Shown here: in pieces, positions 985-13,490 of the stretch
Layout of the letters: every line of letters begins with the position of its first letter
Position numbering within the stretch: the first letter of the stretch is position 1
Assembly: GCA_946629405.1 (NCBI GenBank)
Contig: CAMOXW010000007.1
Span: 1 to 13,490, forward strand
From: an uncultured Ruminococcus sp.
GTDB lineage: Bacteria > Bacillota_A > Clostridia > Oscillospirales > Ruminococcaceae
DNA length: 13,490 bases
Direction of reading: 5' to 3'
Translations under genes and position numbers: made by a program
Notes under the pieces: generated by a model
What the model was told of the DNA's origin: nothing
The model's input: only the letters and a program-made list of their open reading frames with translations
The model's database searches: none

Positions 985-1008
985 AGGCTCATATACCTCC
1001 ATAGGTCA

Positions 1009-1025
1009 TTCCGCACCGGGCGGAA
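1009..1025 (-). other. Small hairpin in the ylxQ-infB gap
   Basis: TTCCGC and GCGGAA form a 6-bp stem around a 5-base loop, in the 79-base gap between ylxQ and infB. On the minus strand no U-run follows, so it is not an intrinsic terminator. It lies just upstream of the infB ribosome binding site (GGAGG, 996-1000) and might affect mRNA stability or infB translation. It could also be chance. Confidence 0.3.
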
Positions 1026-1063
1026 GTATTTCATATTAATGTAAGAGCACAAGCTCATCAGTA

Positions 1064-1378
1064 TCATTGTGCGCTGATACGCATAAAAGCGTCCGCGAAG
1101 CCCTTGTCTGTCACCGCGATCACCGCAGTTGACTTTCCGCACAGCTTTCCGAGCTCTTCCTTCGAGAGCTCAGAGGCGATAACAGGGACTGAATATCTGC
1201 CGCAGACGAACACGGTCTCCTTGACCGTTTTTGCAGAGGCATCGCAGGCTGTTATCACACAGAAAGCCCTGCCCTCTGCGGCACACCCGCAAACGCTGTC
1301 AAAGCCTTTGACGGTCTTCCGTGCCTTGTTGCATATCGTGAGGAGATCAGCCGTTCTGCGTTTCTTTTCCGAGCTCAT
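1064..1378 (-). CDS. ylxQ: L7Ae/L30e/S12e-family RNA-binding protein YlxQ
   Basis: A 104-residue protein of the ribosomal L7Ae family, whose members bind kink-turn RNA. The family pattern is visible: LLTICNKARKTVKGFDSV near the N terminus, then VITACDAS, the central CGRYSVPVIASELSKEELG, and CGKSTAVIAVTDKGFADAF at the end. It sits between rnpM and infB, the standard Firmicute position for ylxQ. Its start (ATG 1378-1376) has GAGGTG seven bases upstream, inside the end of rnpM, so the two genes overlap by 32 bases and are probably translationally coupled. The sequence has several cysteines (positions 16, 30, 32, 40, 45, 59, 79), more than usual for the family, but they form no obvious metal-binding pattern. 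Its exact cellular role is unsettled in the family. Confidence 0.88.
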   Translation of the reverse strand: MSSEKKRRTADLLTICNKARKTVKGFDSVCGCAAEGRAFCVITACDASAKTVKETVFVCGRYSVPVIASELSKEELGKLCGKSTAVIAVTDKGFADAFMRISAQ

Positions 1379-1631
1379 CAGCCATCACCTCATAAACGCT
1401 GTCGTCTATCCTGCATGAAAATGTCTTTTCAAATCTCCGGGCTTTTCTTGCCTTGCCGAAGCACTCGGTACTGCGGCAGATATAAGCTCCTCTGCCGGAC
1501 TTCTTGCCGGTGATATCGAGGCTTATATCTCCCTCCGGGGATCTGACTACGCGGATCAGTTCCTTTTTCGGCTTCATCTCATTGCAGCCGAGACACATTC
1601 TCATGGGGACCTTTTTCGGCTTCATGCTCAT
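1347..1631 (-). CDS. rnpM: YlxR/RnpM family nucleic-acid-binding protein
   Basis: A 94-residue YlxR-family (DUF448) protein; in Bacillus this family binds and modulates RNase P RNA and is now called RnpM. Hallmarks are the N-terminal RMCLGCNEMKPKKELIRVVR (Cys13 and Cys16 in a C-x-G-C pattern), the TGKKSGRGAYIC segment around residues 41-52, and a basic helix KARKARRFEKTF after it. The ATG at 1631 overlaps the nusA stop codon in an ATGA arrangement, so translation is likely coupled to nusA. The tail reads into the ylxQ start region. An alternative ATG two codons in (MKPKKVP) is possible. The family call is firm; the RNase P role is transferred from other bacteria. Confidence 0.92.
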   Translation of the reverse strand: MSMKPKKVPMRMCLGCNEMKPKKELIRVVRSPEGDISLDITGKKSGRGAYICRSTECFGKARKARRFEKTFSCRIDDSVYEVMADELGKETQNG

Positions 1632-2902
1632 TCCTCTGTGTCCTCAGGAGCATCTGCCGTTTCAGCGGGAGCTTCCTCAGCGGGAGCATCATCGAGAGAA
1701 AGCACATTCTCAACGAGCTCTGGTTCATCCTCACCCTCCTCAGGCTCAGGCTTTACTGTTTCCGGCACCTTGTAATCCGGGCTCAGCTCAGGAGCTGCGT
1801 CACCTGTAAGGGTATCGAACTGCGGCTTGATGTCGATCTTGTAGCCTGTAAGCTTTGCCGCAAGCTTTGCATTCTGGCCCTTGTTTCCGATAGCGAGCGA
1901 GAGCTGATTGTTCGGCACGATAACGGTGCAGGTCTTTTCCTCCTCGGAGGTGATGACTGTCTTGAGCACCTCTGCGGGAGCGAGCGCTCTTGCGATGAAC
2001 TCACCGGGGTCCTCGCTCCAGGGGATGATGTCTATCTTTTCACCGTTGAGCTCGCTTACGACAGCGGTTATTCTTGAACGCTTCGCACCGATGCAGGCGC
2101 CTACTGCGTCAACGTTCGCATCGTTCGACCAGACAGCCATTTTTGTTCTTGAACCAGCCTCACGCGAGATCGACTTGACCTCAACGATGCCGTCATATAT
2201 TTCCGGCACCTCAAGCTCAAAGAGTCTCTTTACAAGGTCCTTGTGGGTACGGGAGATCTTGACTACGGGCTTCTTGTTCTTGCCGATTATGCCGGTGATA
2301 TATACCTTTACAGGCTTGCCCTCGACGAGAGTTTCACCGGGTATCTGCTCATTGCGGAAAAGGTAGAGCTCTGTGCCATCGTAGAGGACGGTAACAGTTC
2401 CCCTGCCGGGCTCGACCTGGGAAACTGTTGCAGTGATGCACTCATGCTCCTTCTGCTCGAACTTGCTGAGCATCTGCTCACGGTTTATCTCTCTGAGGTC
2501 GCCCTTGATGGACTGCTTTGCGGAGAGAGCAGCCATTCTTCCGAGCTTTGAGATATCTATTTCCTTCAGTAGCTTATCTCCTACCATGACATCGGGCTTT
2601 ATTGTTCTGGCAACGTCGATATTGATCTCATTCTCGTCGATCGGGTAATCGTCTATGACCTCCTGTGCGATGAACATCTGGAAGCGCTTTTCAGAAGGGT
2701 CTATCTCAACGCGGATGTTCTCCTCGCTGTGGGGGTAAGCCTTTCTTGCAGCCTTGAGCATTGCGGACTTGACCTTTTCGATGAGCAGCTCAGTCTCGAC
2801 GCTGTTTTCCTCGCCGAGAAGCGCAAGTGCCTCGAAGAATTCGCTTCCGCTGAACTCAGGAGCAGCGTTTGCAGCCTTTGACGATTTTTTCTTTGTATTC
2901 AT
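1628..2902 (-). CDS. nusA: Transcription termination/antitermination factor NusA
   Basis: NusA binds RNA polymerase and nascent RNA and modulates pausing, termination and antitermination. The 424 residues show a helical N-terminal RNAP-binding domain (about 18-145), an S1 domain (about 153-218, VSQVEPGRGTVTVLYDG), and KH1 (about 245-310, SREAGSRTKMAVWSNDANVD then VGACIGAKRSRI). KH2 follows (about 320-360, LAIGNKGQNAKLAAKLTGYK). Two features differ from the common 350-370 residue form: an extra N-terminal stretch of about 18 residues rich in Lys/Ser/Ala, and an acidic tail of about 55 residues (PEPEEGEDEPELVEN...). In KH1 the GxxG loop reads G-A-K-R (272-275), so the second glycine is missing, while KH2 keeps G-N-K-G. 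The start has GGAGG 11 bases upstream. It lies between rimP and rnpM, as expected. Confidence 0.96.
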   Translation of the reverse strand: MNTKKKSSKAANAAPEFSGSEFFEALALLGEENSVETELLIEKVKSAMLKAARKAYPHSEENIRVEIDPSEKRFQMFIAQEVIDDYPIDENEINIDVARTIKPDVMVGDKLLKEIDISKLGRMAALSAKQSIKGDLREINREQMLSKFEQKEHECITATVSQVEPGRGTVTVLYDGTELYLFRNEQIPGETLVEGKPVKVYITGIIGKNKKPVVKISRTHKDLVKRLFELEVPEIYDGIVEVKSISREAGSRTKMAVWSNDANVDAVGACIGAKRSRITAVVSELNGEKIDIIPWSEDPGEFIARALAPAEVLKTVITSEEEKTCTVIVPNNQLSLAIGNKGQNAKLAAKLTGYKIDIKPQFDTLTGDAAPELSPDYKVPETVKPEPEEGEDEPELVENVLSLDDAPAEEAPAETADAPEDTEE

Positions 2903-2937
2903 TTCTGTAGATTCCTCCAGTATAATAATATTTCTTT

Positions 2938-3411
2938 TTAAAATTCAAGGTAAAGCTTTACATATGCGATATCAGCAAGCGGGAATTTTCTCTCGGAGCC
3001 GTCCTCAAGGGCAAGTGTAACTCCCTCCCGGTCGGCGCCGGCAAGCACAGCGGTGAATTCCTTTTCGCCGTCCGCAGCTCTTATCAGACGAAGTCTTACC
3101 GTATCGCCGGTGCAGACCTCGAAGTGCTCCTCCTTGACGAGCTCGCGTTCAAGTCCGGCAGAGCCGACCTCCAGCACATAGCTCTGTGAGATCGGGTCAG
3201 CCTCATCAAGCGCCTCGTTGATCGGGGCAGTAGCCCTTTCACAGTCGTCGATAGAGATCCCCTCGTCCTGGTCAATGAACACCCTCAGGTACCACATCGC
3301 ACCTTCCTTTTCGTAGCAGATGTCCCAGAGGTAATAGCCAAGCTCGTCGGTTATCGGCTTTATAAGGTCATATACACGCTGTTCAGTCGCTCCGAATTTC
3401 TTATACTTCAT
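2938..3411 (-). CDS. rimP: Ribosome maturation factor RimP
   Basis: A 157-residue RimP, which helps assemble the 30S subunit. The N-terminal domain (about 8-83) contains LGYYLWDICYEKEG and the DDCERATAPINEALDEADP helix. The signature YVLEVGSAGLERELVKEEHFE corresponds to the usual LEVSSPGLDRPL, with S-to-G and P-to-A changes and EREL in place of DRPL. The C-terminal SH3-like domain (about 88-155) ends IAYVKLYLEF. It is the first gene of the operon. AAAGGAGA sits seven bases before the ATG at 3411, and a promoter and hairpin lie in the 5' leader. The order rimP-nusA is near universal, which together with the signature makes this secure. Confidence 0.94.
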   Translation of the reverse strand: MKYKKFGATEQRVYDLIKPITDELGYYLWDICYEKEGAMWYLRVFIDQDEGISIDDCERATAPINEALDEADPISQSYVLEVGSAGLERELVKEEHFEVCTGDTVRLRLIRAADGEKEFTAVLAGADREGVTLALEDGSERKFPLADIAYVKLYLEF

Positions 3412-3440
3412 TAGCAGTCTCCTTTCTGATAAGTCCTAAT

Positions 3441-3471
3441 ACAAACGAAAGACCGGAGGCTTCCGGTCTTT
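3441..3471 (-). terminator. Leader hairpin with U-rich tail upstream of rimP (candidate attenuator)
   Basis: On the minus strand AAAGACCGGA, an AGCC loop and TCCGGTCTTT form a perfect 10-bp stem. It is followed by CGTTTGTATT, an interrupted U-rich tail. The hairpin lies within the roughly 75-base leader between the predicted start site (about 3487) and the rimP ATG. A terminator inside the leader of a rimP-nusA operon fits NusA-dependent autoregulation, reported for Bacillus; that link is inferred here. The stem could also act on the plus strand, where TTTTGCTTT follows. Confidence 0.6.
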
Positions 3472-3493
3472 TGCTTTAACTATCATCTTTATT

Positions 3494-3522
3494 ATTATAC
3501 CACCTGTTTCCTGAAAAATCAA
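3494..3522 (-). promoter_or_regulatory. Sigma-A type promoter of the rimP-nusA-infB operon
   Basis: On the minus strand, -35 TTGATT (3522-3517), a 17-base spacer and a perfect -10 TATAAT (3499-3494) give a start site near 3487. A-rich tracts upstream of the -35 (about 3523-3552) resemble an UP element. Confidence 0.8.
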
Positions 3523-3552
3523 GTCTTTTCGGAAATTTTTTCATATTTTTTC

Positions 3553-3569
3553 AGCATATTCCGTATGCT
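3553..3569. other. Inverted repeat between divergent promoters
   Basis: AGCATA, a 5-base spacer and TATGCT form a perfect 6-bp dyad midway between the rimP-operon promoter and the solute-binding-protein promoter. It could be an operator for either side. It is short enough to be chance. Confidence 0.3.
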
Positions 3570-3599
3570 TGTCCCTTCAAGAAAATGTTCACATTATTC

Positions 3600-3629
3600 T
3601 TGACAATCGGGTAAGAAATATTGTATAAT
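3600..3629 (+). promoter_or_regulatory. Strong sigma-A type promoter of the solute-binding lipoprotein
   Basis: A consensus -35 TTGACA (3600-3605), an 18-base spacer and a consensus -10 TATAAT (3624-3629) predict a start near 3636 and a 5' leader of about 54 bases. Both hexamers are perfect, suggesting high expression. It also rules out the in-frame ATG at 3621, which lies inside the -10 region. Confidence 0.85.
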
Positions 3630-3689
3630 ATACTTGACATGACCGTGCTGACCCTCTCACCGGCACGTTGTACGAAAGGAGTTTTTATT

Positions 3690-5108
3690 ATGAAGAAATT
3701 AACAAGAGCCCTTGCAGGCATCATCGCCCTCTCTGCTCTGATGTCGGCAACACTCTCTTGCAGCAGCAAAAAGGATGACAGCAGCAGTGAATCTCACGTT
3801 GACCAGTATTCCGTAACTGACTACGAGGGACTTCCTGAGGCTGATGCGAAAGAGGATAAGCCCATGGACATCGTATGGCTCAGCTACTACGACCTCAACC
3901 CTGAGGGCAAGGCTGACCGTTCGGTTGCGCTTTCACTGTTCGAGGACCGCTATGGCGGCTCGATAAAATCGATCGTTGTCAACCCGGAGGAAAAGTTCAC
4001 CATTCTGTCTACCAAGATCGCAGCCGGCGATCAGGTGGATATGTTCCCCTATGAATGGGATGCTGTGCCTAACGGCGTTATGAAAAACCAGTATGCTCCT
4101 CTTGATCCTTACTACGACTCTCTCGGCATGAACGAGGACGGCCTCTGGGACGATATGAAGGACGTTATAGATATGTTCGAGTACAATGGCGGACACTATG
4201 TTATCCCTTACTCGATTTCCGATCCGCTCCTCATCACCTACAGCAGAAAGCTCATGCAGCAGGAAGGCCTTGACGATCCCTATGAGCTTTACCTCGACGG
4301 CGAATGGGACTGGGATGCTTTCATGGACATGATGGAACAGTTCGTTGAGAACGCTCCCTCCGGCACTCAGAGATACGGAATAAACGGCTGGTTCGGTCAG
4401 GCTGTTATCCAGTCGACCGGCCATACAGTCATCAACTATGACGGCGAAAAGTTCAGCAATAACATCAACGACCCCGAGCTTGAAAAGGCTGAGCTCCTCC
4501 TCCAGGAGATCTCACGCAAGCAGCTCTACCTCCCCGGCTGGATAGGTTACTTCCCGAACGACCAGTCTACGCTGTTCTTCGCAATGGCTGACTGGGCTCT
4601 CGGAACATCGAATGCAAAAAACGAGGGCGCGGATCTTATGGTGGTTCCGTTCCCAAAGGAGCCCGGTGCTAAGGACTATTACCTCTGCTGCAACTACGGT
4701 GCAAGAATGCTCGTGAACCATTCTGACAGAGGCGACGCAGTTGCTACTTACATAATGTGCGAGAGGTACGCTGCCACTGAGCAGAAGTACAGGGACGCTG
4801 CAAAACAGAAGGCTCTCATCGTCGAAAAGACCGGAAGCGGCCTCACCAAGAGCTTCGTCACCGAGGAGCAGTACGACGCTATCCAGAGCTATCTCGACCC
4901 CTCGAATATCGTTCCTATGTTCGACTTCGGCTACGGCATGGGCGAGAGAATGTACAGGGACGGCGATTATACCTATGAGACCAGAGGTGTTATGAACAAC
5001 CTTGAAAACGCTCTCCTTGAAGGCACCGAAGGCGTGGATTCATGGGCGACCCTCCGCGATGCGTGGACAGGCGTTATCACCGAAGAAGTGAATTCCTTTA
5101 ACAACTAA
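3690..5108 (+). CDS. Extracellular solute-binding lipoprotein (ABC importer type, probably sugar)
   Basis: A 472-residue lipoprotein resembling family 1 extracellular solute-binding proteins of ABC importers. MKKLTRALAG and a hydrophobic segment lead to Cys24 in a T-L-S-C lipobox, then a Ser/Lys/Asp-rich tether. The mature part has family-like features: an opening beta strand (PMDIVWLSYYDLNPEG), FTILSTKIAAGDQVDMFPYE (about 103-122), YAPLDPYYDS, GGHYVIPYSISDPLLITYSRKLM (about 167-189), and EWDWDAFMDMMEQF (205-218), the usual TWDEF-like helix. Abundant Trp and Tyr would suit carbohydrate binding, but the ligand cannot be read from sequence. The start at 3690 is supported by GAAAGGAG eight bases upstream; the longer in-frame start at 3621 lies in the promoter. 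It is monocistronic, ending at a terminator, with no permease or ATPase gene adjacent. Confidence 0.85.
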   Translation: MKKLTRALAGIIALSALMSATLSCSSKKDDSSSESHVDQYSVTDYEGLPEADAKEDKPMDIVWLSYYDLNPEGKADRSVALSLFEDRYGGSIKSIVVNPEEKFTILSTKIAAGDQVDMFPYEWDAVPNGVMKNQYAPLDPYYDSLGMNEDGLWDDMKDVIDMFEYNGGHYVIPYSISDPLLITYSRKLMQQEGLDDPYELYLDGEWDWDAFMDMMEQFVENAPSGTQRYGINGWFGQAVIQSTGHTVINYDGEKFSNNINDPELEKAELLLQEISRKQLYLPGWIGYFPNDQSTLFFAMADWALGTSNAKNEGADLMVVPFPKEPGAKDYYLCCNYGARMLVNHSDRGDAVATYIMCERYAATEQKYRDAAKQKALIVEKTGSGLTKSFVTEEQYDAIQSYLDPSNIVPMFDFGYGMGERMYRDGDYTYETRGVMNNLENALLEGTEGVDSWATLRDAWTGVITEEVNSFNN

Positions 5109-5131
5109 GATATTTCAATAATTATGCTATG

Positions 5132-5160
5132 GCGGGGAGCTCTCTCCCCGCTTTTGTTTA
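5132..5160 (+). terminator. Intrinsic terminator of the solute-binding-protein gene
   Basis: GCGGGGAG (5132-5139), a CTCT loop and CTCCCCGC (5144-5151) form an 8-bp GC-rich stem followed by TTTTGTTTA, 23 bases after the stop codon. Confidence 0.9.
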
Positions 5161-5176
5161 CAGATCATAAGACAGC

Positions 5177-5204
5177 AAAAAGGACGCCTCAGGCGCCCTT
5201 TTTT
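5177..5204 (-). terminator. Terminator of the lipoprotein-CorC operon, probably bidirectional
   Basis: On the minus strand GGGCGCC, a TGA loop and GGCGTCC form a 7-bp stem with one G-U pair, followed by TTTTTGC, immediately after the CorC-type gene's stop. The plus strand also shows A-run, stem and T-run, so it may back up the terminator at 5132-5160. Confidence 0.88.
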
Positions 5205-6526
5205 CATTCTTCGTCAGTTTCTTCAGTCACGGGAAGCTTTTCGACCCTGCACAGCTCTATCCTGTGGTGACGCAGCTCGATGACCTCGATCCCCAGACCG
5301 TCAGCCTCAATGGAAAGCTGTGTACCATCGCGGGGAATATCGCCGAGCTCGGCCATGACATAGCCGCCGAAGGTCTCATAATTATCCGCAGGAAGCTCTA
5401 TCCCAAGCTCCTCATTGACCTCTGCGACCGAAGTATTACCGGGTATCAGCCAGACATTGCCGCTTGCCTTTTCCATGCGCGGCTGCGGGATATCGTCCTC
5501 ATCGTCCGAAAAATCGCCGACGAGCTGTTCAACAAGATCGGTAACTGTTATTATGCCGCTCATGCCGCCGTACTCATCAACAACAACAGCAAAATGATCC
5601 GCGCCGCTGTTCTTCATCTGCTCAAAGAGCCTGTCCGCCTTCATCGTCTCATGAACAAAGTACGGCTCCCGGACGGCGCTTCTCATGATATTCTCACGGC
5701 TCTTGTCATCGAGGCGAAAGTAATCCTTCGCGTGAAGCACTCCGACAACATTGTCAACGCTCTCGCCGCAGACCGGGAATACCGAGTGTCTTGTGCGGTG
5801 GATAGTTTCCTCCCATACACTTGTATCATCATGCTCCCAGAGTACGGAGACCTCGGTGCGGTGAGTACATATTTGTCCGGCGGTCATATCGTCAAAGGCA
5901 AAAACGTTCTTGATTATCCTGTTCTCGTCCTCGTCGATAGTCCCCTTTTCCGCGCCCGCATCGGACATCATGAGTATTTCCTCCTCGGTAACGGCATTAT
6001 CCTCAGCAGAGGGGTCTATGCCCATGAGCCTCAGCAAGCCGTCCGAGGCAGCGCCGGTAAGGAATACTGCCGGAGCGGAGACTGCCATAACTATCCTGAG
6101 GAAGCCGCTCAGCCGGAGCGCTGTCTTTTCGGGGTACTTCGCAGCAATGTGCCGGGGCATGAGCTCGCCGAAAACAAGCAGCAGAAAACTCACTGCAAAA
6201 ATAATTATTATCAGTGAAGCCGCCGAAAGAACTCTCCATGAGAGACCGGTGCCGGCCTTTTCAAGGACGCAGGCAAGCTTCCCTGTAAAGCCGTAAGCCG
6301 CAGATGCCACCGCAGCAAGGCTTACAAACAAGGATGATACGCGGGCAGAATCAAGGAGTCTGCCGGGGCTCGCAGTGAGTTTTTTCAGGCGTTTTCCGCG
6401 CCTTGAGCCATCAGCAGCAAGCTTTTCGAGCCGCGTATCATTGATCGCTATAGCAGCAGCCTCCGCGCAGTTAATCGCCGCGCAGAGAACTATAAGAATA
6501 AATTGCAGTATAAACCGCGTTATCAT
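5204..6526 (-). CDS. HlyC/CorC (CNNM) family membrane protein with CBS pair
   Basis: A 440-residue member of the CNNM/CorC (UPF0053, 'hemolysin-like') family, linked in other bacteria to Mg2+, Co2+ or other cation efflux. Residues 1-195 form the DUF21/CNNM transmembrane region. Hydrophobic segments lie at about 4-27, 60-82, 100-122 and 140-165, with the family FGELMPRHIAAKYPEK motif near 119-134. Residues about 215-335 are a CBS pair (VFPVCGESVDNVVGVLHAKD and FAVVVDEYGGMSGIITVTDL). Residues about 350-430 are the CorC_HlyC cap (NYETFGGYVMAELGDIP). The start has GGAGAC just upstream and lies 18 bases after the LP1 lipoprotein stop. It is the last gene of the six-gene operon and the only one with predicted polytopic membrane segments. 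Transported ion unknown. Confidence 0.92.
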   Translation of the reverse strand: MITRFILQFILIVLCAAINCAEAAAIAINDTRLEKLAADGSRRGKRLKKLTASPGRLLDSARVSSLFVSLAAVASAAYGFTGKLACVLEKAGTGLSWRVLSAASLIIIIFAVSFLLLVFGELMPRHIAAKYPEKTALRLSGFLRIVMAVSAPAVFLTGAASDGLLRLMGIDPSAEDNAVTEEEILMMSDAGAEKGTIDEDENRIIKNVFAFDDMTAGQICTHRTEVSVLWEHDDTSVWEETIHRTRHSVFPVCGESVDNVVGVLHAKDYFRLDDKSRENIMRSAVREPYFVHETMKADRLFEQMKNSGADHFAVVVDEYGGMSGIITVTDLVEQLVGDFSDDEDDIPQPRMEKASGNVWLIPGNTSVAEVNEELGIELPADNYETFGGYVMAELGDIPRDGTQLSIEADGLGIEVIELRHHRIELCRVEKLPVTEETDEE

Positions 6527-6544
6527 GTTTGTCTCCGATACAGA

Positions 6545-7471
6545 TTATTTTTCTCTTTTCAGCACAGTTTCCACGCCGTCATCAGCCAGCATGGTGAGTG
6601 TATTTCCGTCAACGCTGTAGTAAAATGTACCTTCGTCATCCATATTGTAGGAATCCGACTCAATTGTGAGCTTATTGCCGCTTACGGAGTAGGAGAAGGC
6701 GTCAGAAGCGCTTATAACAGTCTTTCCGCCGTCGATCGTTATCAGAGTATTGCTGCGGTCAACGTTGGCAGCACCGCCTGTGAGAGCTGAAGCCCATTGC
6801 TCCCCCTCGCTGATCGTATAGGTACCGTCGAGAGTGCCGGAGCCTCCGGACTTCTTATCGAAAACGAACATTTTCTCGCCCTCATAGAGTATAGAGAGCT
6901 TGCTTCCGCTGAAGTCATATGTGATAGACTCATCCTCGTCGTCGAAGAAGTAGACCTTTCCGTCACGGAAGCTGAACATATAGCTCACATCCACAGATAT
7001 ATCGCCTTTTCCGCCGGGATTGAAGATCAGTGAAGCGGTAATTTCATCTTCCTCGATCACCCATGAACCGGTCACATCTCCTCCCTTGTACCTGGAAGTA
7101 TCTTCGGTCACAGGCTCTCTCCTCCCGGTAGTTACGGGAGAGGTGGTTTTCTTTGTGGTAGTCTTTGCATCAGCAGTTGTCTCAGCAGTTGTCGTTACAG
7201 CCTTAGCCTCTGTGGTAGTCTCCTTGTCGGGCACCTTAACGGTCTTTGCGGAGGTAGTGGTCTTTTCAGTAGTCTTTTCGGATGTCTTTTCCTCACCGGT
7301 AGAAGCCGCGGTCGAAGCTTCTGCCGGCTCCTCCGATGTATCCGTTGCGGTCTCAGAGGTATTTGCAGAGGTCGTAGCTTCTGTATTGGATGAGGAGCTG
7401 TCCTTGCCGCACGAAGCGAAAGCGCTCACGAGAAGCAGGCAGCTCATAAGCAAAGCGATAGATCTTTTCAT
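6545..7471 (-). CDS. Lipoprotein LP1: Thr-rich stalk plus B module
   Basis: A 308-residue predicted lipoprotein of no family I can name. The signal peptide ends at the lipobox F-A-S-C (Cys21). Residues 22-128 are a low-complexity stalk of Thr, Ser, Ala, Glu and Lys (for example KTTTSAKTVKVPDKETTTEA), likely extended and surface exposed. Residues about 133-306 form a B module of two beta-rich units. B1 begins GSWVIEEDEITASLIF; B2 begins LDGTYTISEGEQW and ends FYYSVDGNTLTMLADDGVE. The same B module ends LP2, LP3 and LP5, with the shared end pattern G-x-T-L-x-[LM]. AAAGGAG within the last codons of LP2 serves as ribosome binding site, and the gap is 4 bases. The fold may be lipocalin-like, but that is inference. 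Confidence 0.85.
   Translation of the reverse strand: MKRSIALLMSCLLLVSAFASCGKDSSSSNTEATTSANTSETATDTSEEPAEASTAASTGEEKTSEKTTEKTTTSAKTVKVPDKETTTEAKAVTTTAETTADAKTTTKKTTSPVTTGRREPVTEDTSRYKGGDVTGSWVIEEDEITASLIFNPGGKGDISVDVSYMFSFRDGKVYFFDDEDESITYDFSGSKLSILYEGEKMFVFDKKSGGSGTLDGTYTISEGEQWASALTGGAANVDRSNTLITIDGGKTVISASDAFSYSVSGNKLTIESDSYNMDDEGTFYYSVDGNTLTMLADDGVETVLKREK
7088..7408 (-). repeat. Low-complexity Thr/Ser/Ala/Glu/Lys linker coding region
   Basis: Codons for residues 22-128 of LP1 are dominated by ACT/ACA/ACC Thr, with Ala, Glu and Lys, giving irregular repeats on the DNA (gtagtc/gtggta-type blocks on the plus strand). It encodes the stalk between lipid anchor and folded module. Such regions are prone to length change by slippage or recombination. 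Confidence 0.7.
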
Positions 7472-7475
7472 TTCA

Positions 7476-8078
7476 TTACTCCTTTTCTCTGATCAGGACG
7501 GTCACGGTGCCGTCCCCGGCTGTCAGTGAAAGTCTGCTGTCTGTCAGCTCATAGCTGTATACGGAACTCTCGTTTTTTCCGTTTGATGTTTTTGAGAGCG
7601 TAAGGTTTGAGCCGTCAGCGGAATACTGATACATACTTACTGCGTATGTCATTTCTCCGTCGATCATATAGGTACTGTCTGCGGCGCGCATATATTTTTC
7701 GATATCAGGATCGTATATCTGGATATATGAGCCGTTGATATCCTCCGTTGAAGTATTGCCGTCTACACGCCTCAGTCTGTGGAGTTCAAGGCCGTCGAGC
7801 GTTACAGTAAGGTCAGTGCCGTCAAAGGTATAATCAGCCTTCTCACTCCCCAGAACGACCGCAGAGTCTCCGGAGAAGCTCAGGATATCTGAATAGTCTC
7901 TTTTTTCTTCCGCAGTTCCGTCCTCAAAGAAGGTCAGCCGCATATTGCCGGTCTGCGTACTCAGAAGCCATGTACCGATGATGCTTCCGGTTTCCTCAGC
8001 GGTGCAGGATGAAGTCCTGCTCCCGCATGAGGACAGCGCAGCAGCCATGCAGCAGAGCGCTGCGGTGAACCTTTTCAT
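7476..8078 (-). CDS. Lipoprotein LP2: B module only
   Basis: A 200-residue predicted lipoprotein, family not recognised. The signal peptide ends at L-S-S-C (Cys18); a second Cys is at 25. There is almost no stalk. The B1 unit (about 33-104) starts IIGTWLLSTQTGNMRLTFFEDG. B2 (about 114-199) starts INGSYIQIYDPDIEKYM and ends YSYELTDSRLSLTAGDGTVTV. The stretch YQYSADGSNLTL (150-161) closely matches YQYTADGSDITI in LP3, so these two look like the closest pair in this region. The start lies 6 bases after the LP3 stop. No GGAGG-like sequence precedes it (the upstream bases read TGATAAGAA), so translation probably depends on ribosomes terminating on LP3. Function unknown. Confidence 0.82.
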   Translation of the reverse strand: MKRFTAALCCMAAALSSCGSRTSSCTAEETGSIIGTWLLSTQTGNMRLTFFEDGTAEEKRDYSDILSFSGDSAVVLGSEKADYTFDGTDLTVTLDGLELHRLRRVDGNTSTEDINGSYIQIYDPDIEKYMRAADSTYMIDGEMTYAVSMYQYSADGSNLTLSKTSNGKNESSVYSYELTDSRLSLTAGDGTVTVLIREKE

Positions 8079-8084
8079 TTCTTA

Positions 8085-9242
8085 TCAGTCAGCGCGGGTA
8101 AGTTCCTGCTTTGCGCCGCTTGCAGAAAGTGTGAGCGTGTCGCCCTTGATAGTATAGGAAAATTTCGTGTTGTTGAACAGAGACTTGCCCTTTACGATAG
8201 TGATATCCGAGCCGTCAGCGGTATACTGGTAGCAGTCAGCCATTACCATAACACTGTCTTTGCCGTCAAATTCGATAGTGAGGTTGAGCGGGAAGTCCTC
8301 TCCGAAGGTAGGCTCATACTGGTCATAGAGATAACCGGCTGTGATCTGGAACGTACCCTGGAGGTCGTTCTTGCTGCCGGAGATCTTGGTCATGGTGAGA
8401 AGGTTCTCGCCGTCAACATCGAGAACGAACTTGCCGTTCTTGAAGGAATACATATCCTCTGTGATCTCATTGTCGGAGAACACCATTGTAGTGCCGTCAA
8501 CTGAGATGATCTCGGAGGAGTAGAGGATAACATCGCCCATACCGTCAGCCTTGTAGTTGTAGGCGCCCTTGAATCCGTTTTCCTCAGTCTCCCATGTGCC
8601 GACGAGCTTGCTGTCGACCTCGCCTGAGGATGAGCCGCCTGAGGATGAACCGCCCGAAGACGAGCCGCCCTCATAATCCGTATATTTTGTTACCTTCTCG
8701 AAATACATGATGAAGTCAGTGTCTTCGTCGTCTGCAACAACAAGATATCCAGACTTGATAATAAACTCGGTGTCGTCGCCTTCCTCATCAAGAGCAGAAA
8801 CTTTCTTGGAGCTCTTTTCTTCCCATGTAAATTTGATCGTTTCGCCTGATTCTGTGTTCATGTATTTTCCGTTGCCGTCCTCATCGAACTCAACACGGAT
8901 AAAGCTTCTCAGGCTTACTCCACCCTGCTCGGTATATTCCTCCCCGTCATCCTCTATTTTCACGAGTTCCCACTTTCCGACGAACTCTGAATCGCTCTCG
9001 TCATCGTCAGCCTCAGTAGTAGCCTCCTTGGTAGTCTTGCCCTTTGTGGTCTTCTTTGCAGTTGTGGTATCCTCGTCGTCATCATCGTCGTCAGCCTCAG
9101 TAGTATCTTCCTCATCATCAAAGAGACCGGAAATAGAGCCCTTTGACGCAGAATCCGAATCACTTCCGCCGTCGCTTCCGCATGAAGCAAAAGCACTTGT
9201 GATAAGCATACAGCTCATAAGAATTGAAATAAGTTTTTTCAT
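8085..9242 (-). CDS. Lipoprotein LP3: acidic stalk, A module, GGSSS linker, B module
   Basis: The largest of the set, 385 residues, and the only one with both module types. The lipobox is F-A-S-C (Cys21). Residues 22-86 form an acidic and Thr/Lys-rich stalk, including an unbroken run of six Asp (51-56). The A module (about 87-183) begins FVGKWELVKIEDDGEEY and ends DFIMYFEKVTKYT. A flexible linker with three GGSSS units (192-206) follows. The B module (about 212-383) begins KLVGTWETEENGFKGAYNY, continues at LQGTFQITAGYLYDQYEP, and ends FSYTIKGDTLTLSASG. AAAGGAG seven bases before the ATG supports the start. The gap to LP4 is 33 bases. The A module resembles lipocalin-like G-x-W domains of Firmicute surface proteins; the ligand is unknown. 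Confidence 0.87.
   Translation of the reverse strand: MKKLISILMSCMLITSAFASCGSDGGSDSDSASKGSISGLFDDEEDTTEADDDDDDEDTTTAKKTTKGKTTKEATTEADDDESDSEFVGKWELVKIEDDGEEYTEQGGVSLRSFIRVEFDEDGNGKYMNTESGETIKFTWEEKSSKKVSALDEEGDDTEFIIKSGYLVVADDEDTDFIMYFEKVTKYTDYEGGSSSGGSSSGGSSSGEVDSKLVGTWETEENGFKGAYNYKADGMGDVILYSSEIISVDGTTMVFSDNEITEDMYSFKNGKFVLDVDGENLLTMTKISGSKNDLQGTFQITAGYLYDQYEPTFGEDFPLNLTIEFDGKDSVMVMADCYQYTADGSDITIVKGKSLFNNTKFSYTIKGDTLTLSASGAKQELTRAD
8625..8669 (-). repeat. Three 15-base tandem units encoding GGSSS linkers
   Basis: Three consecutive 15-base units each encode Gly-Gly-Ser-Ser-Ser between the A and B modules of LP3. The two downstream units share TCATCCTCA for the serines; the third differs by synonymous changes. 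The linker resembles a flexible inter-domain hinge. Confidence 0.85.
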
Positions 9243-9275
9243 AAATTTTCTCCTTTAAAAAAGTTATTTGATTTA

Positions 9276-10253
9276 TTATTTTTCAAAATACAGCTTGAAT
9301 TCTTCATCGTCCTCTTCATAGAGAACGAGATATTCCCCGTCTAAATAAGACAGATTAGTTCCGCCTTCATCATCAGTCATTGTCACCTCATTAGGACCGG
9401 TTACCTCCCACATGAAGCCTATCGAATCGTTCTCTCCGTCAGTATAACTGCTGAACGTGCCCTTGCCGTCAGCATTGATCTCCAGTGCCATAAGCTCACT
9501 CAGATCCACGCCGTCATACTCATCCTCAATAAAGCTGCCGCTGTAGTCGATCTTTGCAAGATGCCATTCACCGACGATCTTCTCCCCGATATCACCGGAT
9601 GATGAGCTGCCGCCGGAACTGTCATCGCCGCCGCTTTCATCCCACGGCGTATACTTATTTACCTTCTCGAAGTACAGAACGAAATCCGGGTCGCCAAGAT
9701 CTGTGACAAGATATCCGCTCTTGAGCGTGCAGTAAGAGCTGTCGCCGTCCTCGTCAAGTATCGTGATCTTTTTAGTGCCGGTGTCTTTCCAGTCGAAATC
9801 AAGCACATCCCCGTCCGCAGCACTGATGAACTGTCCGCTGCCGTCTGACTGGAACTCTGCGCGGATAGCGCTTCTGAGACTTATGCCGTTGTAGGAATCA
9901 GAGTAGGTAATACCCTCGTCCTCGATCATGACGAGCTCCCACTTGCCGATGAAATCGGAGCTGCTGGTATCAGGCTCATAATCCGTCTCAGGTTCAGTCT
10001 CCTCCTCATCGGGGTCTTCACGGGGAGTTCTTTCCCTTGTGGTCTTTTCCCTGAGGGAGATGCCTTTTGTCGCAGGCTCATCGTCGTCCTCATCCTTGCC
10101 ATCTTCCGCCTCGGTCGTCTTTTCCGTCTTTTCGGAAGAAGCCGCTGAAGATGCTGCGTCAGAGTTATCCGTACCGCCGCTGCTGCTTCCGCATGATGCA
10201 AAAGCGCTTGTGAGGAGCATACAGCCTGTGAGTATCGCAACAAGTCTTTTCAT
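9276..10253 (-). CDS. Lipoprotein LP4: acidic stalk plus two A modules
   Basis: A 325-residue predicted lipoprotein, family not recognised. The lipobox is F-A-S-C (Cys21). A stalk of Asp/Glu/Ser/Thr/Lys/Arg (22-100) is followed by A1 (about 101-197: FIGKWELVMIEDEGITYSDS ... FVLYFEKVNKYT). A Gly/Ser/Asp linker (about 203-224) leads to A2 (about 226-325: KIVGEWHLAKIDYSGSFIED ... FKLYFEK). The protein stops exactly at the LYFEK motif, where LP3 continues into a B module. A1 is visibly closer to the LP3 A module than to A2 (shared ISLRS/VSLRS, LKSGYLV/IKSGYLV and YFEKV-x-KYT). The ribosome binding site AAAGGA lies seven bases before the ATG. Four in-frame TAA codons end the reading frame and its downstream gap. 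Confidence 0.86.
   Translation of the reverse strand: MKRLVAILTGCMLLTSAFASCGSSSGGTDNSDAASSAASSEKTEKTTEAEDGKDEDDDEPATKGISLREKTTRERTPREDPDEEETEPETDYEPDTSSSDFIGKWELVMIEDEGITYSDSYNGISLRSAIRAEFQSDGSGQFISAADGDVLDFDWKDTGTKKITILDEDGDSSYCTLKSGYLVTDLGDPDFVLYFEKVNKYTPWDESGGDDSSGGSSSSGDIGEKIVGEWHLAKIDYSGSFIEDEYDGVDLSELMALEINADGKGTFSSYTDGENDSIGFMWEVTGPNEVTMTDDEGGTNLSYLDGEYLVLYEEDDEEFKLYFEK
9279..9953 (-). repeat. Internal duplication of the A module in LP4
   Basis: The regions encoding residues 101-197 (9663-9953) and 226-325 (9279-9578) align over their length. Both have G-[KE]-W-[EH]-L near the start, a DG-x-G turn with a following F, a [DF]-x-W strand, DEDG/DDEG, G-Y/E-Y-L-V and a final LYFEK. The copies are strongly diverged, so the duplication is old. 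Confidence 0.75.
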
Positions 10254-10268
10254 ATTCCATTCCTTTCC

Positions 10269-10306
10269 GACCGGAAAACGGTCATTGATATGCTGCTGGT
10301 ATATCA
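10269..10306 (-). other. Two small hairpins in the LP5-LP4 gap
   Basis: On the minus strand a 6-bp stem TGATAT/ATATCA (10301-10306 with 10286-10291) starts at the LP5 stop codon. A second 5-bp stem GACCG/CGGTC (10279-10283 with 10269-10273) with loop TTTTC lies next to the LP4 ribosome binding site. No U-run follows either, so they are not obvious terminators. They may tune LP4 expression or mark a processing site. Confidence 0.35.
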
Positions 10307-10915
10307 GCTTTCCTTGACGAGCACTCTCTTTGTTCCGTCGGTGCGTGTCAAGGAGAGCGTATTCCCGGATAGTTCAAATTCGCCGCTGCTGTCAGGGAAG
10401 CCGTTATGTCCCTTGAAGCTCAGCGTGCTGCCGTCTATGGAATAGTCCACTGCATCAGCCGCAGTGATGCGTATGCTGCTGCCGTTCACTGTGAAATGCA
10501 GCTCTGCGCTGCCGGCATCTGTTATGCCCATGCCATGCGCAATGTTTTCACGGAGGCTCCCGCCTGTAAGTATGTAATCTCCTTCGTAGGAATCCGGCAC
10601 CGCCTCTCCTGTGCGGTCAAGCACCACTGCTTCCTCACCGAGTATCTCTGCTCTGAGGATACTGCCGTCATAGCTGAGGTCGGAGCTGCCGATATGTATT
10701 CCCGCAATGAACAGATCTCCGCCAAGAAAATAGATATTATCCGGACAGACATAGATGTCAGCCGTGCCGTCGCTTCCGAAGACATAGCCTCCGGTGAAGC
10801 CCTCATCATTTACGCGCCATGTTCCGGTTATATCGACACCGCTGCTGCTCCTGCCGTTTCCGCATGAGGTAAACGCAAGCAGAGAAGCAGCCATCACCGC
10901 TGCAAAAGCCTTCAT
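10304..10915 (-). CDS. Lipoprotein LP5: B module only, first gene of the operon
   Basis: A 203-residue predicted lipoprotein, family not recognised. I place the start at ATG 10915-10913 because AAGGAGG lies directly upstream and MKAFAAVMAASLLAFTSC is a complete lipoprotein signal (Cys18). A longer in-frame start at 10945 would put that ribosome binding site inside the gene. The stalk is very short. B1 (about 29-100) begins ITGTWRVNDEGFTGGYVFGSDG and B2 (about 110-202) begins YEGDYILTGGSLRENIAHG and ends FELSGNTLSLTRTDGTKRV. Its B1 is most like that of LP3 (ENGFKGAYNY against DEGFTGGYVF). It is the promoter-proximal gene of the six-gene operon. Function unknown. Confidence 0.83.
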   Translation of the reverse strand: MKAFAAVMAASLLAFTSCGNGRSSSGVDITGTWRVNDEGFTGGYVFGSDGTADIYVCPDNIYFLGGDLFIAGIHIGSSDLSYDGSILRAEILGEEAVVLDRTGEAVPDSYEGDYILTGGSLRENIAHGMGITDAGSAELHFTVNGSSIRITAADAVDYSIDGSTLSFKGHNGFPDSSGEFELSGNTLSLTRTDGTKRVLVKES

Positions 10916-10938
10916 AGTTCCTCCTTGATCCACGCACA

Positions 10939-10953
10939 CAGGCAAGAAGCCTG
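10939..10953 (-). other. Small hairpin in the LP5 leader
   Basis: CAGGC and GCCTG form a 5-bp stem around TTCTT, in the roughly 50-base 5' leader between the predicted start site and the LP5 ribosome binding site. G-U pairs could extend it slightly. It may be a minor leader structure. Confidence 0.3.
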
Positions 10954-10968
10954 CACGATGATACTACA

Positions 10969-10997
10969 ATTATATCACTGAGAGTACAGTATTTCAA
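10969..10997 (-). promoter_or_regulatory. Sigma-A type promoter of the lipoprotein-CorC operon
   Basis: On the minus strand -35 TTGAAA (10997-10992), a 17-base spacer and a perfect -10 TATAAT (10974-10969) precede LP5. The predicted start is near 10962. I see no other comparably good promoter or terminator before the CorC-type gene, so all six genes are likely one transcript. Confidence 0.82.
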
Positions 10998-11108
10998 GCA
11001 ATTATCCAAAAAGTCCCCGAAATGTAATATTTTTTTTATCGCCGCGGGCTCAATTTGTAAATTATGACTATAATTCCGCGGTGTTACGCCTCTTTAAGCC
11101 GTCTGCAC

Positions 11109-11140
11109 TTGACATTTCCGTCTTTTGATGTTAATATAAT
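11109..11140 (+). promoter_or_regulatory. Promoter of the LRR lipoprotein and P-type ATPase genes
   Basis: A perfect -35 TTGACA (11109-11114) is followed by an AT-rich -10 region. TAATAT at 11132-11137 gives a 17-base spacer. A perfect TATAAT at 11135-11140 gives an overlong 20-base spacer. The first reading is the more likely active form. The start should lie near 11145. Confidence 0.65.
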
Positions 11141-11159
11141 CATGGCAAAACAGCGTAAC

Positions 11160-11183
11160 TTCCGCAGCCGCGGAAATTTTTTT
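11160..11183 (+). terminator. Terminator-like hairpin directly before the LRR gene ribosome binding site
   Basis: TTCCGC (11160-11165), an AGCC loop and GCGGAA (11170-11175) form a 6-bp stem. Seven T (11177-11183) follow, then immediately GGAGGG. This is the layout of an intrinsic terminator inside a 5' leader, so it may act as an attenuator. The stem is short, so it could be weak or without function. Confidence 0.5.
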
Positions 11184-11192
11184 GGAGGGAAT

Positions 11193-12173
11193 ATGAGAAA
11201 AATCATCGCCGTGCTCGCGGCTGCAATGCTTGCCACGCCTGTTTCCTGCAGCAAGTCTGATGATAAAAAAGATGATAAAAGCAGATATTTCGTGATAGAG
11301 GACAATGTCCTCGTAGGCTATACCGGAAAGGATGCCATTGTGCATATACCTGACGGCGTGACCGAGATAAACCAAAGAGCCTTCTGGGGGAATAACACGG
11401 CTGTCGCGGTATACATACCTTCCTCAGTGCGGAAGCTTGACGAAAATGCCTTCTGGAGCTGCAACGGGCTGAGATTCGTGGACATTGCAGAAGGAACGGA
11501 AACTATCAGCGAATGCGTATTCTGGAGCTGTCCCGCATTGAAGGACGTTAATCTCCCGGAGAGCGTAAAATACATGGATGATTCAGTCTTCTGGGCGATA
11601 AGAGGTCTCACGCTTCACGCCCCGGAAAACTCATATGCAGCAGAATTTGCAAAGGATCACCGGTTCAGCCTTGACTATACCCCCGCGGTATATGAGGATG
11701 AAGCGCCCGGAAAACACATCACCGCTTCACAATATGCTGACATGGACCTCACGGAATTTGAGATAGGCAGCGATATAGCTGCGATAGATGCCAACGCTTT
11801 CTACCACTGTGAAGGTCCCGCAGCCGTTACTGTTCCGGAAAATGTACAGTATATCGCGCCGGATGCGTTCGGATACTGCACAGGCCTGAAAACCGCTGAG
11901 ATACAGGGCTGCCGCGATGTGAGAGCAAATGCCTTTGAATACTGCAAGGGTCTGGAAAAGCTTACCATAGGCGAGGGTACTGTCTCAATAGGCAGCTGGG
12001 CGTTTTCGTACTGCGAAAATCTGAAGGATGTGTTCCTCCCGGAAAGCCTTTCGGAGCTTGGAGAATATGCCTTCGAGCACTGCAGCGATGATCTTGTTCT
12101 GCACGTCCCGGCAGGCTCCGAGGCTGAAAAACTCGCAAAGCTCGCAGGACTTGACTATGATAATAATATTTAA
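11193..12173 (+). CDS. BspA-type leucine-rich-repeat lipoprotein
   Basis: A 326-residue lipoprotein with LRR_5/BspA-type repeats, a family of surface proteins often involved in protein or matrix binding. The signal peptide ends at P-V-S-C (Cys19), followed by a Lys/Asp tether. Block 1 has four repeats of 23 residues, each with a Phe-Trp pair (64-65, 87-88, 110-111, 133-134), then a cap LTLHAPENSYAAEFAKDH. Block 2 has five repeats of 22-23 residues with F-x-[YH]-C (Phe at 203, 226, 248, 271, 294), then a matching cap LVLHVPAGSEAEKLAKL. So the protein is an ancient duplication of repeats plus cap. The start at 11193 has GGAGGG close upstream; the longer in-frame start at 11064 lies upstream of the promoter. 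The next gene begins 11 bases on. Confidence 0.88.
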   Translation: MRKIIAVLAAAMLATPVSCSKSDDKKDDKSRYFVIEDNVLVGYTGKDAIVHIPDGVTEINQRAFWGNNTAVAVYIPSSVRKLDENAFWSCNGLRFVDIAEGTETISECVFWSCPALKDVNLPESVKYMDDSVFWAIRGLTLHAPENSYAAEFAKDHRFSLDYTPAVYEDEAPGKHITASQYADMDLTEFEIGSDIAAIDANAFYHCEGPAAVTVPENVQYIAPDAFGYCTGLKTAEIQGCRDVRANAFEYCKGLEKLTIGEGTVSIGSWAFSYCENLKDVFLPESLSELGEYAFEHCSDDLVLHVPAGSEAEKLAKLAGLDYDNNI

Positions 12174-12184
12174 GGAGAGATAAT

Positions 12185-13490
12185 ATGAACTATTTTGACC
12201 AGGACGAAGAAAGCGTCATCAGTGCTCTCGGCAGCGACCGGGAGCACGGACTGACAGACCAGCAGGTGAAGGAAAGCCGTGAAAAATACGGAGAGAATGC
12301 TATCGCCGAGGAAAAACCCAAGAGCCTTCTGCGGGTATTCCTTGAACAGTTCGCGGACCTCCTCGTAGTAATACTCATCATAGCTTCCATAATCTCAATG
12401 ATAAGCGGCGAGATAGGCAGCACTATCGTTATCCTCGTCGTGCTCGTCATGAACGCTGTACTCGGCACCGCTCAGCACGTCAAGGCTCAGAAGTCCCTCA
12501 GCAGCCTCAAAGCCATGAGCTCCCCCAGCGCAAGAGTTATCCGTAACGGCGCCCAGACAGAGATACCTGCCTCTGAAGTAGTTGTAGGCGACATTCTCCT
12601 TATGGAAGCCGGAAACGTTGCCGCTGCCGACGGACGCCTTCTTGAAGCCGCTTCATTGCAGGTCAACGAGAGCGCTCTCACCGGTGAATCGCTGAACGTT
12701 ACCAAGTCCACCGCAAAGATAGAACAGTCCGAGCTTGCTCTCGGCGACAGGGTGAACATGATCTACTCCGGCTCGAATATTTCTAACGGCAGAGGCGTTG
12801 CTGTCGTCACCGCCGTCGGAATGGGCACCGAGATAGGCAAGATCGCTTCCCTCATGCAGAATGCCAAGAAAAAGAAAACTCCCCTCCAGGTCAGCCTCGA
12901 CAAGTTCAGCAAGATACTCTCGATCGCTATCATATTCATATGTATCGCCGTATTCCTGATGACCTACTTCATCAACGACCAGCCCGCCGTTGATGCGCTC
13001 ATGTTCGCTGTAGCGCTCGCAGTTGCGGCAATACCTGAAGCTCTCAGCTCGATAATCACTATCTCCCTCGCTATCGGCACTCAGAAAATGTCGAAGCAGA
13101 AGGCGATCATAAAAGACCTCAAAGCTGTTGAGGGCCTGGGCTGTGTATCAATAATCTGCTCCGACAAGACCGGTACGCTCACCCAGAACAGGATGACTGT
13201 CCGTGACCTCAGCTTCCCCTGTGAGGCAGCAAAGGATGAGCTGCTGCTGGCTATGGCTCTCTGCAACGACGCTGCAAAATCTGAGGACGGCTGGCTCGGT
13301 GACCCTACAGAGACCGCACTCTCCGATTATATGGGCAACGATGAATATATCCGCATCCGCAGCGAAAATCCCAGACTTGACGAGATCCCCTTCGACATCG
13401 ACAGAAAGCTGATGACGACTGTCCACTTATTTGCAGGCGAGCGCCGTGCTTACACAAAGGGCGCGATACACGTTCTTGTCACCTGTATGA
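12185..13490 (+). CDS. P-type ATPase, Ca2+-type (P2), N-terminal 435 residues, cut by window edge
   Basis: This is a cation-pumping P-type ATPase of the P2 (SERCA/PMR1-like) group, acting in the cytoplasmic membrane. The N-terminal cation-ATPase domain (HGLTDQQVKESREKYGENAI) is followed by membrane helices M1-M2 (about 55-98). The actuator domain has ALTGES (164-169). M3-M4 (about 243-300) carries AAIPEALSSI, with Glu285 at the place of SERCA Glu309, a Ca2+ ligand. The phosphorylation site is CSDKTGTLTQN (Asp327), and the nucleotide-binding domain shows GDPTETAL (372-379), FDIDRKLMTT (403-412) and KGA (425-427). The C-terminal half is outside the window. The ribosome binding site AAGGAGA overlaps the LRR gene stop codon, so the two are likely co-transcribed and coupled. 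Ca2+ is likely from the PEAL motif; Mn2+ is possible. Confidence 0.93.
   Translation, partial: MNYFDQDEESVISALGSDREHGLTDQQVKESREKYGENAIAEEKPKSLLRVFLEQFADLLVVILIIASIISMISGEIGSTIVILVVLVMNAVLGTAQHVKAQKSLSSLKAMSSPSARVIRNGAQTEIPASEVVVGDILLMEAGNVAAADGRLLEAASLQVNESALTGESLNVTKSTAKIEQSELALGDRVNMIYSGSNISNGRGVAVVTAVGMGTEIGKIASLMQNAKKKKTPLQVSLDKFSKILSIAIIFICIAVFLMTYFINDQPAVDALMFAVALAVAAIPEALSSIITISLAIGTQKMSKQKAIIKDLKAVEGLGCVSIICSDKTGTLTQNRMTVRDLSFPCEAAKDELLLAMALCNDAAKSEDGWLGDPTETALSDYMGNDEYIRIRSENPRLDEIPFDIDRKLMTTVHLFAGERRAYTKGAIHVLVTCM

Follow-up and report, generated by a model that had tools for sequence, protein, structure and literature searches.

A probable operon of lipocalin-type lipoproteins ending in a CNNM gene, with a Ca2+-ATPase gene as neighbor, in Ruminococcus

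What might five surface lipoproteins have to do with a CNNM-family cation protein whose gene closes their operon? The locus that raises this question lies in a 13,490-nucleotide stretch of DNA from an uncultured Ruminococcus sp. (assembly GCA_946629405.1, contig CAMOXW010000007.1, positions 1 to 13,490), the whole of which is called the window here. Our tentative answer is that these genes supply Ruminococcus with the extracytoplasmic side, and the sensor side, of a module for Ca2+/Mg2+ homeostasis, in which a Ca2+-ATPase encoded next to them would be the third partner. Some relatives retain the neighborhood, a sign that its products may be a helper set, so far undescribed, that balances metal ions at the cell surface.

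A preliminary description of the window had proposed five tandem minus-strand lipoprotein genes and a CorC/CNNM-type gene, separated by 4 to 50 bases, with a shared promoter and a terminator after the last gene. The coordinates and gaps agree with this layout (50, 33, 6, 4, and 18 bases from LP5 through LP4, LP3, LP2, and LP1 to the CNNM gene), and sites resembling both signals are present. The features, with their sources of evidence (ORF, open reading frame; HMM, hidden Markov model), are as follows.

10969 to 10997, minus strand: promoter-like site, TTGAAA-17-TATAAT, with TG ahead of the -10 (promoter scan)
10304 to 10915, minus strand: LP5, lipocalin-like lipoprotein with a single B module (ORF list, start site, Lipocalin_4 match, module HMM, fold)
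9276 to 10253, minus strand: LP4, acidic lipoprotein, A-A (ORF list, module HMM)
8085 to 9242, minus strand: LP3, acidic lipoprotein, A-linker-B (ORF list, module HMM, fold)
7476 to 8078, minus strand: LP2, single-B lipoprotein (ORF list, module HMM, Lipocalin_4 match)
6545 to 7471, minus strand: LP1, lipoprotein with a Thr/Glu/Lys-rich stalk followed by B (ORF list, module HMM)
5204 to 6526, minus strand: CNNM gene, encoding CNNM transmembrane, CBS, and CorC_HlyC domains (Pfam, MtCorB alignment)
5177 to 5203, minus strand: terminator-like hairpin of 12 pairs, 3' of the CNNM gene (terminator scan)

The ORF list starts LP5 at a TTG at 10945; the ATG at 10915 is preceded by aaggagg. The promoter-like site, which matches 11 of 12 consensus positions, ranks second among the 20 such sites in the window and best on the minus strand, and ends about 53 bases ahead of the LP5 start. 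Because the scans returned 20 promoter-like sites against 10.4 expected by chance, and 27 terminator-like sites against 11.4, single weak sites mean little. Weaker promoter-like sites (9/12) lie inside the operon on the minus strand at 10761, 6573, 6535, and 6024, and the terminator scan found no minus-strand site within 6545-10915. Given the tight spacing, the six genes are likely carried on a single transcript. The module HMMs, together with counterparts found in other genomes, rule out chance ORFs and chance repeats. Scans of the window for tRNAs and Rfam families gave no matches.

Each of the five proteins carries, by reading, a signal peptide and a lipobox cysteine (FTSC in LP5, LSSC in LP2, AFASC in LP1, LP3, and LP4), and all are bacterial lipoproteins by predicted lipidation. 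Iterated HMMs bear out the architectures first described (LP5 B, LP4 A-A, LP3 A-linker-B, LP2 B, LP1 stalk-B), placing module B at residues 28-201 of LP5 (2e-50), 33-197 of LP2, 132-306 of LP1, and 213-383 of LP3, and module A at 86-186 of LP3 and at 100-200 and 225-325 of LP4. The modules had not been recognized as a named, characterized family, and here the description has to be amended. LP5 and LP2, at 26.6 and 23.7 bits, exceed the 22.4-bit gathering score of Lipocalin_4 (PF13648), a named family but not a characterized one, with LP3 (20.2) and LP1 (15.2) below it; and the predicted folds of both modules are lipocalin-type beta barrels that match solved lipocalin-like structures. LP4 has no Pfam match above any cut-off, and the A modules likewise fall in no Pfam family above cut-off. 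G-x-W opens all seven modules of the window, and module B is a barrel made of two parts, the second of which starts with G-x-Y in three of the four window copies. The LP3 structure comparison covered mainly residues 79-195, and module B was afterwards folded alone; whole-LP3 Foldseek matches at E 0.001 to a DUF4822 protein (4nw4) and to BamB superposed poorly (root-mean-square deviation of at least 20 Å) and were not used. A protein search with LP3 returned five matches. DUF5640 was matched in seven of 16 genomes searched and exceeded its cut-off in just two, so the Pfam model misses most of this lipoprotein family. The window proteins therefore resemble the uncharacterized Lipocalin_4 and DUF5640 lipoproteins of Pfam in the LP5 and LP2 matches and in the G-x-W opening, and differ from them in the unmatched A modules, the longer two-part B, and the tandem and A-B combinations.

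The association of these lipoproteins with a CNNM gene extends beyond the window. The B profile (A3) at E 1e-8 finds matches in at least 107 of 120 genus genomes (at most 26 candidates scored per genome), and at E 1e-18 it matches three of 148 genomes of the family (G001, G016, and G039; at most 21 candidates scored), all from the genus sample; at this sensitivity, module B looks like a genus-level family. In a first collection of 48 loci with a CNNM relative, fetched with up to 10 kb per side and less on short contigs, seven (L001-L006 and L027) hold A or B modules within the fetched stretch. CNNM is present at E 1e-60 in 102 of the 120 genus genomes. From these, 101 neighborhoods were fetched (G070, broken into two matches, was excluded); two genomes in which the ORF caller missed CNNM (G049 and G072) and four whose contig holds no gene upstream of CNNM (G021, G048, G069, and G106) were set aside to arrive at 95 assessable genomes. 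An A/B lipoprotein gene lies upstream of CNNM in 19 of them, on the same strand and within 1 kb in 18; the count includes G015, where the lipoprotein is 1,073 bases from CNNM with another lipoprotein between, and G027, which enters through an 85-residue gene end at a contig edge. With the window, this gives 20 linked proteins, and the linkage is far above chance. The proposed association of a CorC-type gene with a lipoprotein cluster holds in these cases and fails in the other 76 genomes, where the CNNM gene is unlinked.

Past position 10997, the window neighborhood continues on the opposite strand with two further genes.

11139 to 12173, plus strand: leucine-rich-repeat lipoprotein, divergent, between the operon and the ATPase gene (ORF list)
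12185 to 13489, plus strand: P-type Ca2+-ATPase, LMCA1-like, divergent, cut by the window end (profile matches, L001 orthologue)

Relatives of the leucine-rich-repeat lipoprotein occupy the same place in L001, L003, and L083 (G005). The right edge of the window encodes the first 435 residues of the ATPase, over which the L001 orthologue is 91% identical; that orthologue has LMCA1 as its best PDB match (E about 1e-221) and carries DKTGT, PEAL, and NLLTD. We take the Glu, Asn, and Asp of such PEAL and NLLTD motifs to be Ca2+ site II residues, and by the P-type and site II motifs of the orthologue the neighbor is an LMCA1-like Ca2+-ATPase; the best NCBIfam score, 627 bits, falls short of the Ca2+ equivalog cut-off of 798.3. 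The Listeria pump LMCA1 (lmo0841) differs in company: in the portion of PMC11977196 consulted, a lipoprotein is named just in the reference list, for the nanodisc method. By a reference title in the same article, the human Ca2+-ATPase PMCA1 has an outer partner, neuroplastin, a protein unrelated to these lipoproteins.

At E 1e-180, the ATPase occurs in 26 of the 120 genus genomes. It adjoins lipoproteins in 13, allowing the leucine-rich-repeat lipoprotein or small ORFs between (G001, G002, G003, G005, G006, G007, G027, G043, G045, G079, G091, G094, and G116). In three others (G026, G053, and G119; L142-L144), it adjoins a divergent CNNM gene without A/B lipoproteins; the CNNM membrane domain is diverged in G053 and the usual one in G026 and G119. 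In G004, it lies on a separate contig. All three partners are contiguous in nine genomes (G001, G002, G003, G005, G006, G043, G091, G094, and G116) and in the window. Each of the three pairs also turns up where the remaining partner is missing, which favors a functional set over inheritance as a single block, although descent may still be shared. The ATPase frame is broken in two relatives, by an internal TAG in G007 (C59:20183-21478) and into two adjacent frames in G045 (L147 7233-9807), through decay or sequencing error. The earlier suggestion that the lipoproteins work with a divalent-cation protein is strengthened by the Ca2+-ATPase and by the linkage to CNNM; the view of the modules as matching no named family is not supported, and the unlinked majority of CNNM genes speaks in part against the suggestion.

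Additional genes accompany some of these loci. In L134 (4581-5380), L135 (7838-8636), and L133 (11666-12492), the lipoprotein-CNNM genes have as neighbors an ArsR-family regulator and a small protein about 144 residues long, the regulator being assigned by Pfam HTH_5 in L134 and by similar ORFs in the other two. The small protein has no Pfam match, and one like it lies 3' of the ATPase in L129 and L130; the ArsR-family protein is a possible metal-responsive regulator of the set. After CNNM, on the other strand, L001 (11359-12543) and L129 (12810-13940) encode a VanY/LdcB-type carboxypeptidase-like membrane protein (families tested in both), and ORFs with similar N-termini lie near CNNM in other relatives, on the same strand in L002.

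The CNNM protein itself belongs to the CNNM-domain family at the Pfam level, judged by scores of 134.1 bits for CNNM (DUF21; cut-off 28.4), 45.2 for CBS (24), and 69 for CorC_HlyC (27). Its pi-helix aligns without gaps to that of MtCorB, keeping Glu121 and Pro124 and carrying Arg125 in place of Lys115. According to the portion of PMC8242095 consulted, the MtCorB helix has Glu111, Pro114, and Lys115, with Glu111 coordinating Mg2+, and in TtCorB mutation of the matching Glu lowers transport whereas mutation of the Ser and Asn ligands raises it. The MtCorB ligands Ser21 and Ser25 are replaced by Cys15 and Asn19, a change not special to the window, because unlinked Ruminococcus relatives mostly have Asn (53/80) and Ala (50/80) there. 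With these ligands replaced, we do not file the protein as an MtCorB/TtCorB-type Mg2+ transporter. A PaeA-type polyamine exporter is rejected on score (NCBIfam PaeA, 211.7 bits against an equivalog cut-off of 500), and a dead transporter is unsupported since Glu121 is kept. The protein has the CNNM, CBS, and CorC_HlyC domains of the group that includes MtCorB, TtCorB, and Salmonella PaeA, CorB, and CorC, and keeps the pi-helix Glu and Pro; it differs in the Arg, in the fast-diverging membrane domain of its clade, and in its lipoprotein company, no such partner appearing in the parts of the literature searched.

In the arrangement that we propose, five acidic, lipid-anchored, lipocalin-type barrels, some stalked or tandem, would stand on the outer face of the cytoplasmic membrane. 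The CNNM protein would lie in that membrane, its strongly constrained cytosolic CBS and CorC part reading Mg-ATP or cations and reporting the inner cation state, with the divergent Ca2+-ATPase as third partner. For the lipoproteins, the most probable role would be to bind ions, or a ligand in the envelope, and to modulate the CNNM protein or the pump. We infer this contact, binding, regulation, and reporting; the modulating role is proposed by analogy with ToxS and VtrC, lipocalin-like proteins that each partner a membrane sensor. The fold matches include 8alo, 8u2f, and 5kew, whose roles in ToxR-ToxS and VtrA-VtrC are given in part by their entry titles. Those systems are not lipoproteins beside a CNNM protein, and the likeness is one of working principle only. 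For the inner side, CBS pairs of the CNNM family bind Mg-ATP, and the portion of PMC12421838 consulted states that Salmonella CorC, which has no membrane domain, is still required for Mg2+ tolerance; a CBS and CorC part can thus act without one.

Several observations weigh against this arrangement. The CNNM gene does not adjoin A/B lipoproteins in the 76 genomes noted above, and B-type lipoproteins, given their near-universal presence in the genus sample, lie mostly away from it. In G047, G043, and G116, the gap to CNNM widens to 319-650 bases, and the ATPase is apart from both partners in nine of its 26 genomes (G015, G031, G034, G069, G073, G106, G112, G118, and G120), three of them on contigs below 9 kb. 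Foldseek gives no match for module B at E 0.001, and no ion-binding motif is shown in the barrels. The genes of relatives come from a simple ORF caller, which missed CNNM in G049 and G072. Finally, the gene maps are equally expected from co-regulation without contact.

Such co-regulation is possible and ranks close behind: the lipoproteins and the two cation proteins would form one regulon, with the lipoprotein and CNNM genes on one transcript, and would act separately, the lipoproteins being a genus-specific, expanded surface family with a ligand of its own. The wide occurrence of B-type lipoproteins and the many unlinked CNNM genes fit it well. The recurrence of the ATPase-lipoprotein, lipoprotein-CNNM, and ATPase-CNNM pairings, each with a different partner missing, fits it less readily and suggests more than one inherited block.

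A bolder proposal, which we consider unlikely, is that in this lineage the CNNM protein is giving up transport to become a sensor of Mg-ATP or cations in the membrane, with the lipocalin-like lipoproteins as outer subunits, and controls the neighboring Ca2+-ATPase. Its signs are that a transport-critical Glu is replaced on seven linked branches while the CBS and CorC part stays well conserved in the clade that, on a tree of the cytosolic part, unites the window with L001-L006 (100/99). Species of this window clade share 83-90% identity over the cytosolic part (99-100% in two close pairs) and 36-66% over the membrane part (82 and 97% in those pairs). The ratio of membrane to cytosolic nonsynonymous divergence (dN) has a median of 7.1 over 21 pairs, against 1.9 (maximum 4.9) over 62 unlinked pairs chosen by a cytosolic dN of 0.004-0.10; the pairs are not independent, and in 9 of the 21 the synonymous divergence (dS) of one or both parts is saturated. 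Gene conversion as the source of the conserved cytosolic half is unsupported, the two parts having similar dS in the three pairs that have diverged least (membrane/cytosolic 1.02/0.98, 0.51/0.76, and 0.17/0.13); so is positive selection on the membrane domain, where dN/dS is 0.08-0.31 across the 12 pairs whose dS is finite for both parts. All 20 linked proteins have a higher median ratio than 80 unlinked ones (4.99 vs 3.01, p 0.005). The idea that a fast membrane domain marks linkage in general is rejected, as the 13 linked proteins outside the window clade show 2.31 against 3.01 (p 0.36), and the unlinked G053 and G024 also have a fast membrane domain. By these comparisons, the fast membrane domain is a property of the window clade, not of linkage.

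Of the 20 linked proteins, 12 have lost the transport-critical Glu, the window protein being among the eight keepers, vs 4 of the 80 unlinked (Fisher p 1.5e-7, which ignores kinship). A Pagel-type tree test is not significant (likelihood ratio 3.36, p 0.5). On the seven linked branches six residues replace it (R, V, D, I, S, and Q), vs four changes on unlinked branches; with a quarter of the tree length linked, branch counting gives p 0.008 (cytosolic exposure) or 0.019 (membrane exposure). Among 173 membrane sites tested, this one has the strongest linked-branch excess (p 0.013, uncorrected), but it was first noticed on seven of the same proteins and the test is not independent. We regard the apparent tie between Glu loss and linkage as a lead on which tree-aware results differ. 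A second CNNM-domain protein, always of at least 176 bits, occurs in 14 of 16 genomes tested (G006 and G014 show one), so transport could be covered.

It is more doubtful still that the gene order is neutral, a layout that dates from early in the genus, has been lost here and there by chance, and has no functional meaning. Linkage requires just five changes on the 100-tip cytosolic tree, so one old origin followed by losses is possible; however, the window clade keeps the order although its LP5 counterparts are only 43-55% identical and its LP3 counterparts 41%, and among relatives lipoprotein number and module order change while the CNNM gene still comes after them. Least probable is a role of the lipoproteins as protease inhibitors or ligand binders of the envelope, comparable to potempin E, in an incidental neighborhood, since a common barrel proves no function, other barrels score equally high, and the neighboring cation proteins go unexplained.

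Elsewhere in the window, positions 1064-3411 (minus strand) hold apparent RimP-, NusA-, YlxR-, and L7Ae-like genes, ordered as is usual for a nusA operon, an ordinary arrangement. At 3600-5108 (plus strand), a perfect 12/12 sigma-70-type promoter-like site lies directly 5' of a lipoprotein gene; its product, which presumably resembles an ABC-transporter sugar-binding protein, has no NCBIfam match at E 0.001.

No paper that describes this set of lipoproteins, a lipoprotein partnering a bacterial CNNM protein, or a lipoprotein-equipped two-sided cation sensor came up in a search that covered a minority of subscription journals. Not found in the literature searched, then, are the combination of parts, the genus-level barrel lipoproteins, and their repeated pairing with a Ca2+ pump; the parts themselves are of known kinds. 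The abstract of PMC8242095 begins with the question of whether Mg2+ is carried by CNNM/CorB proteins themselves or by other transporters under their control, and goes on to demonstrate that CorB transports it directly. Natural members of the CNNM family without the transport-critical Glu, but with a cytosolic sensor, candidate outer partners, and a Ca2+ pump, would offer a test of whether some members of the family are regulators, and a function would be given to a genus-wide family of unnamed lipoproteins.

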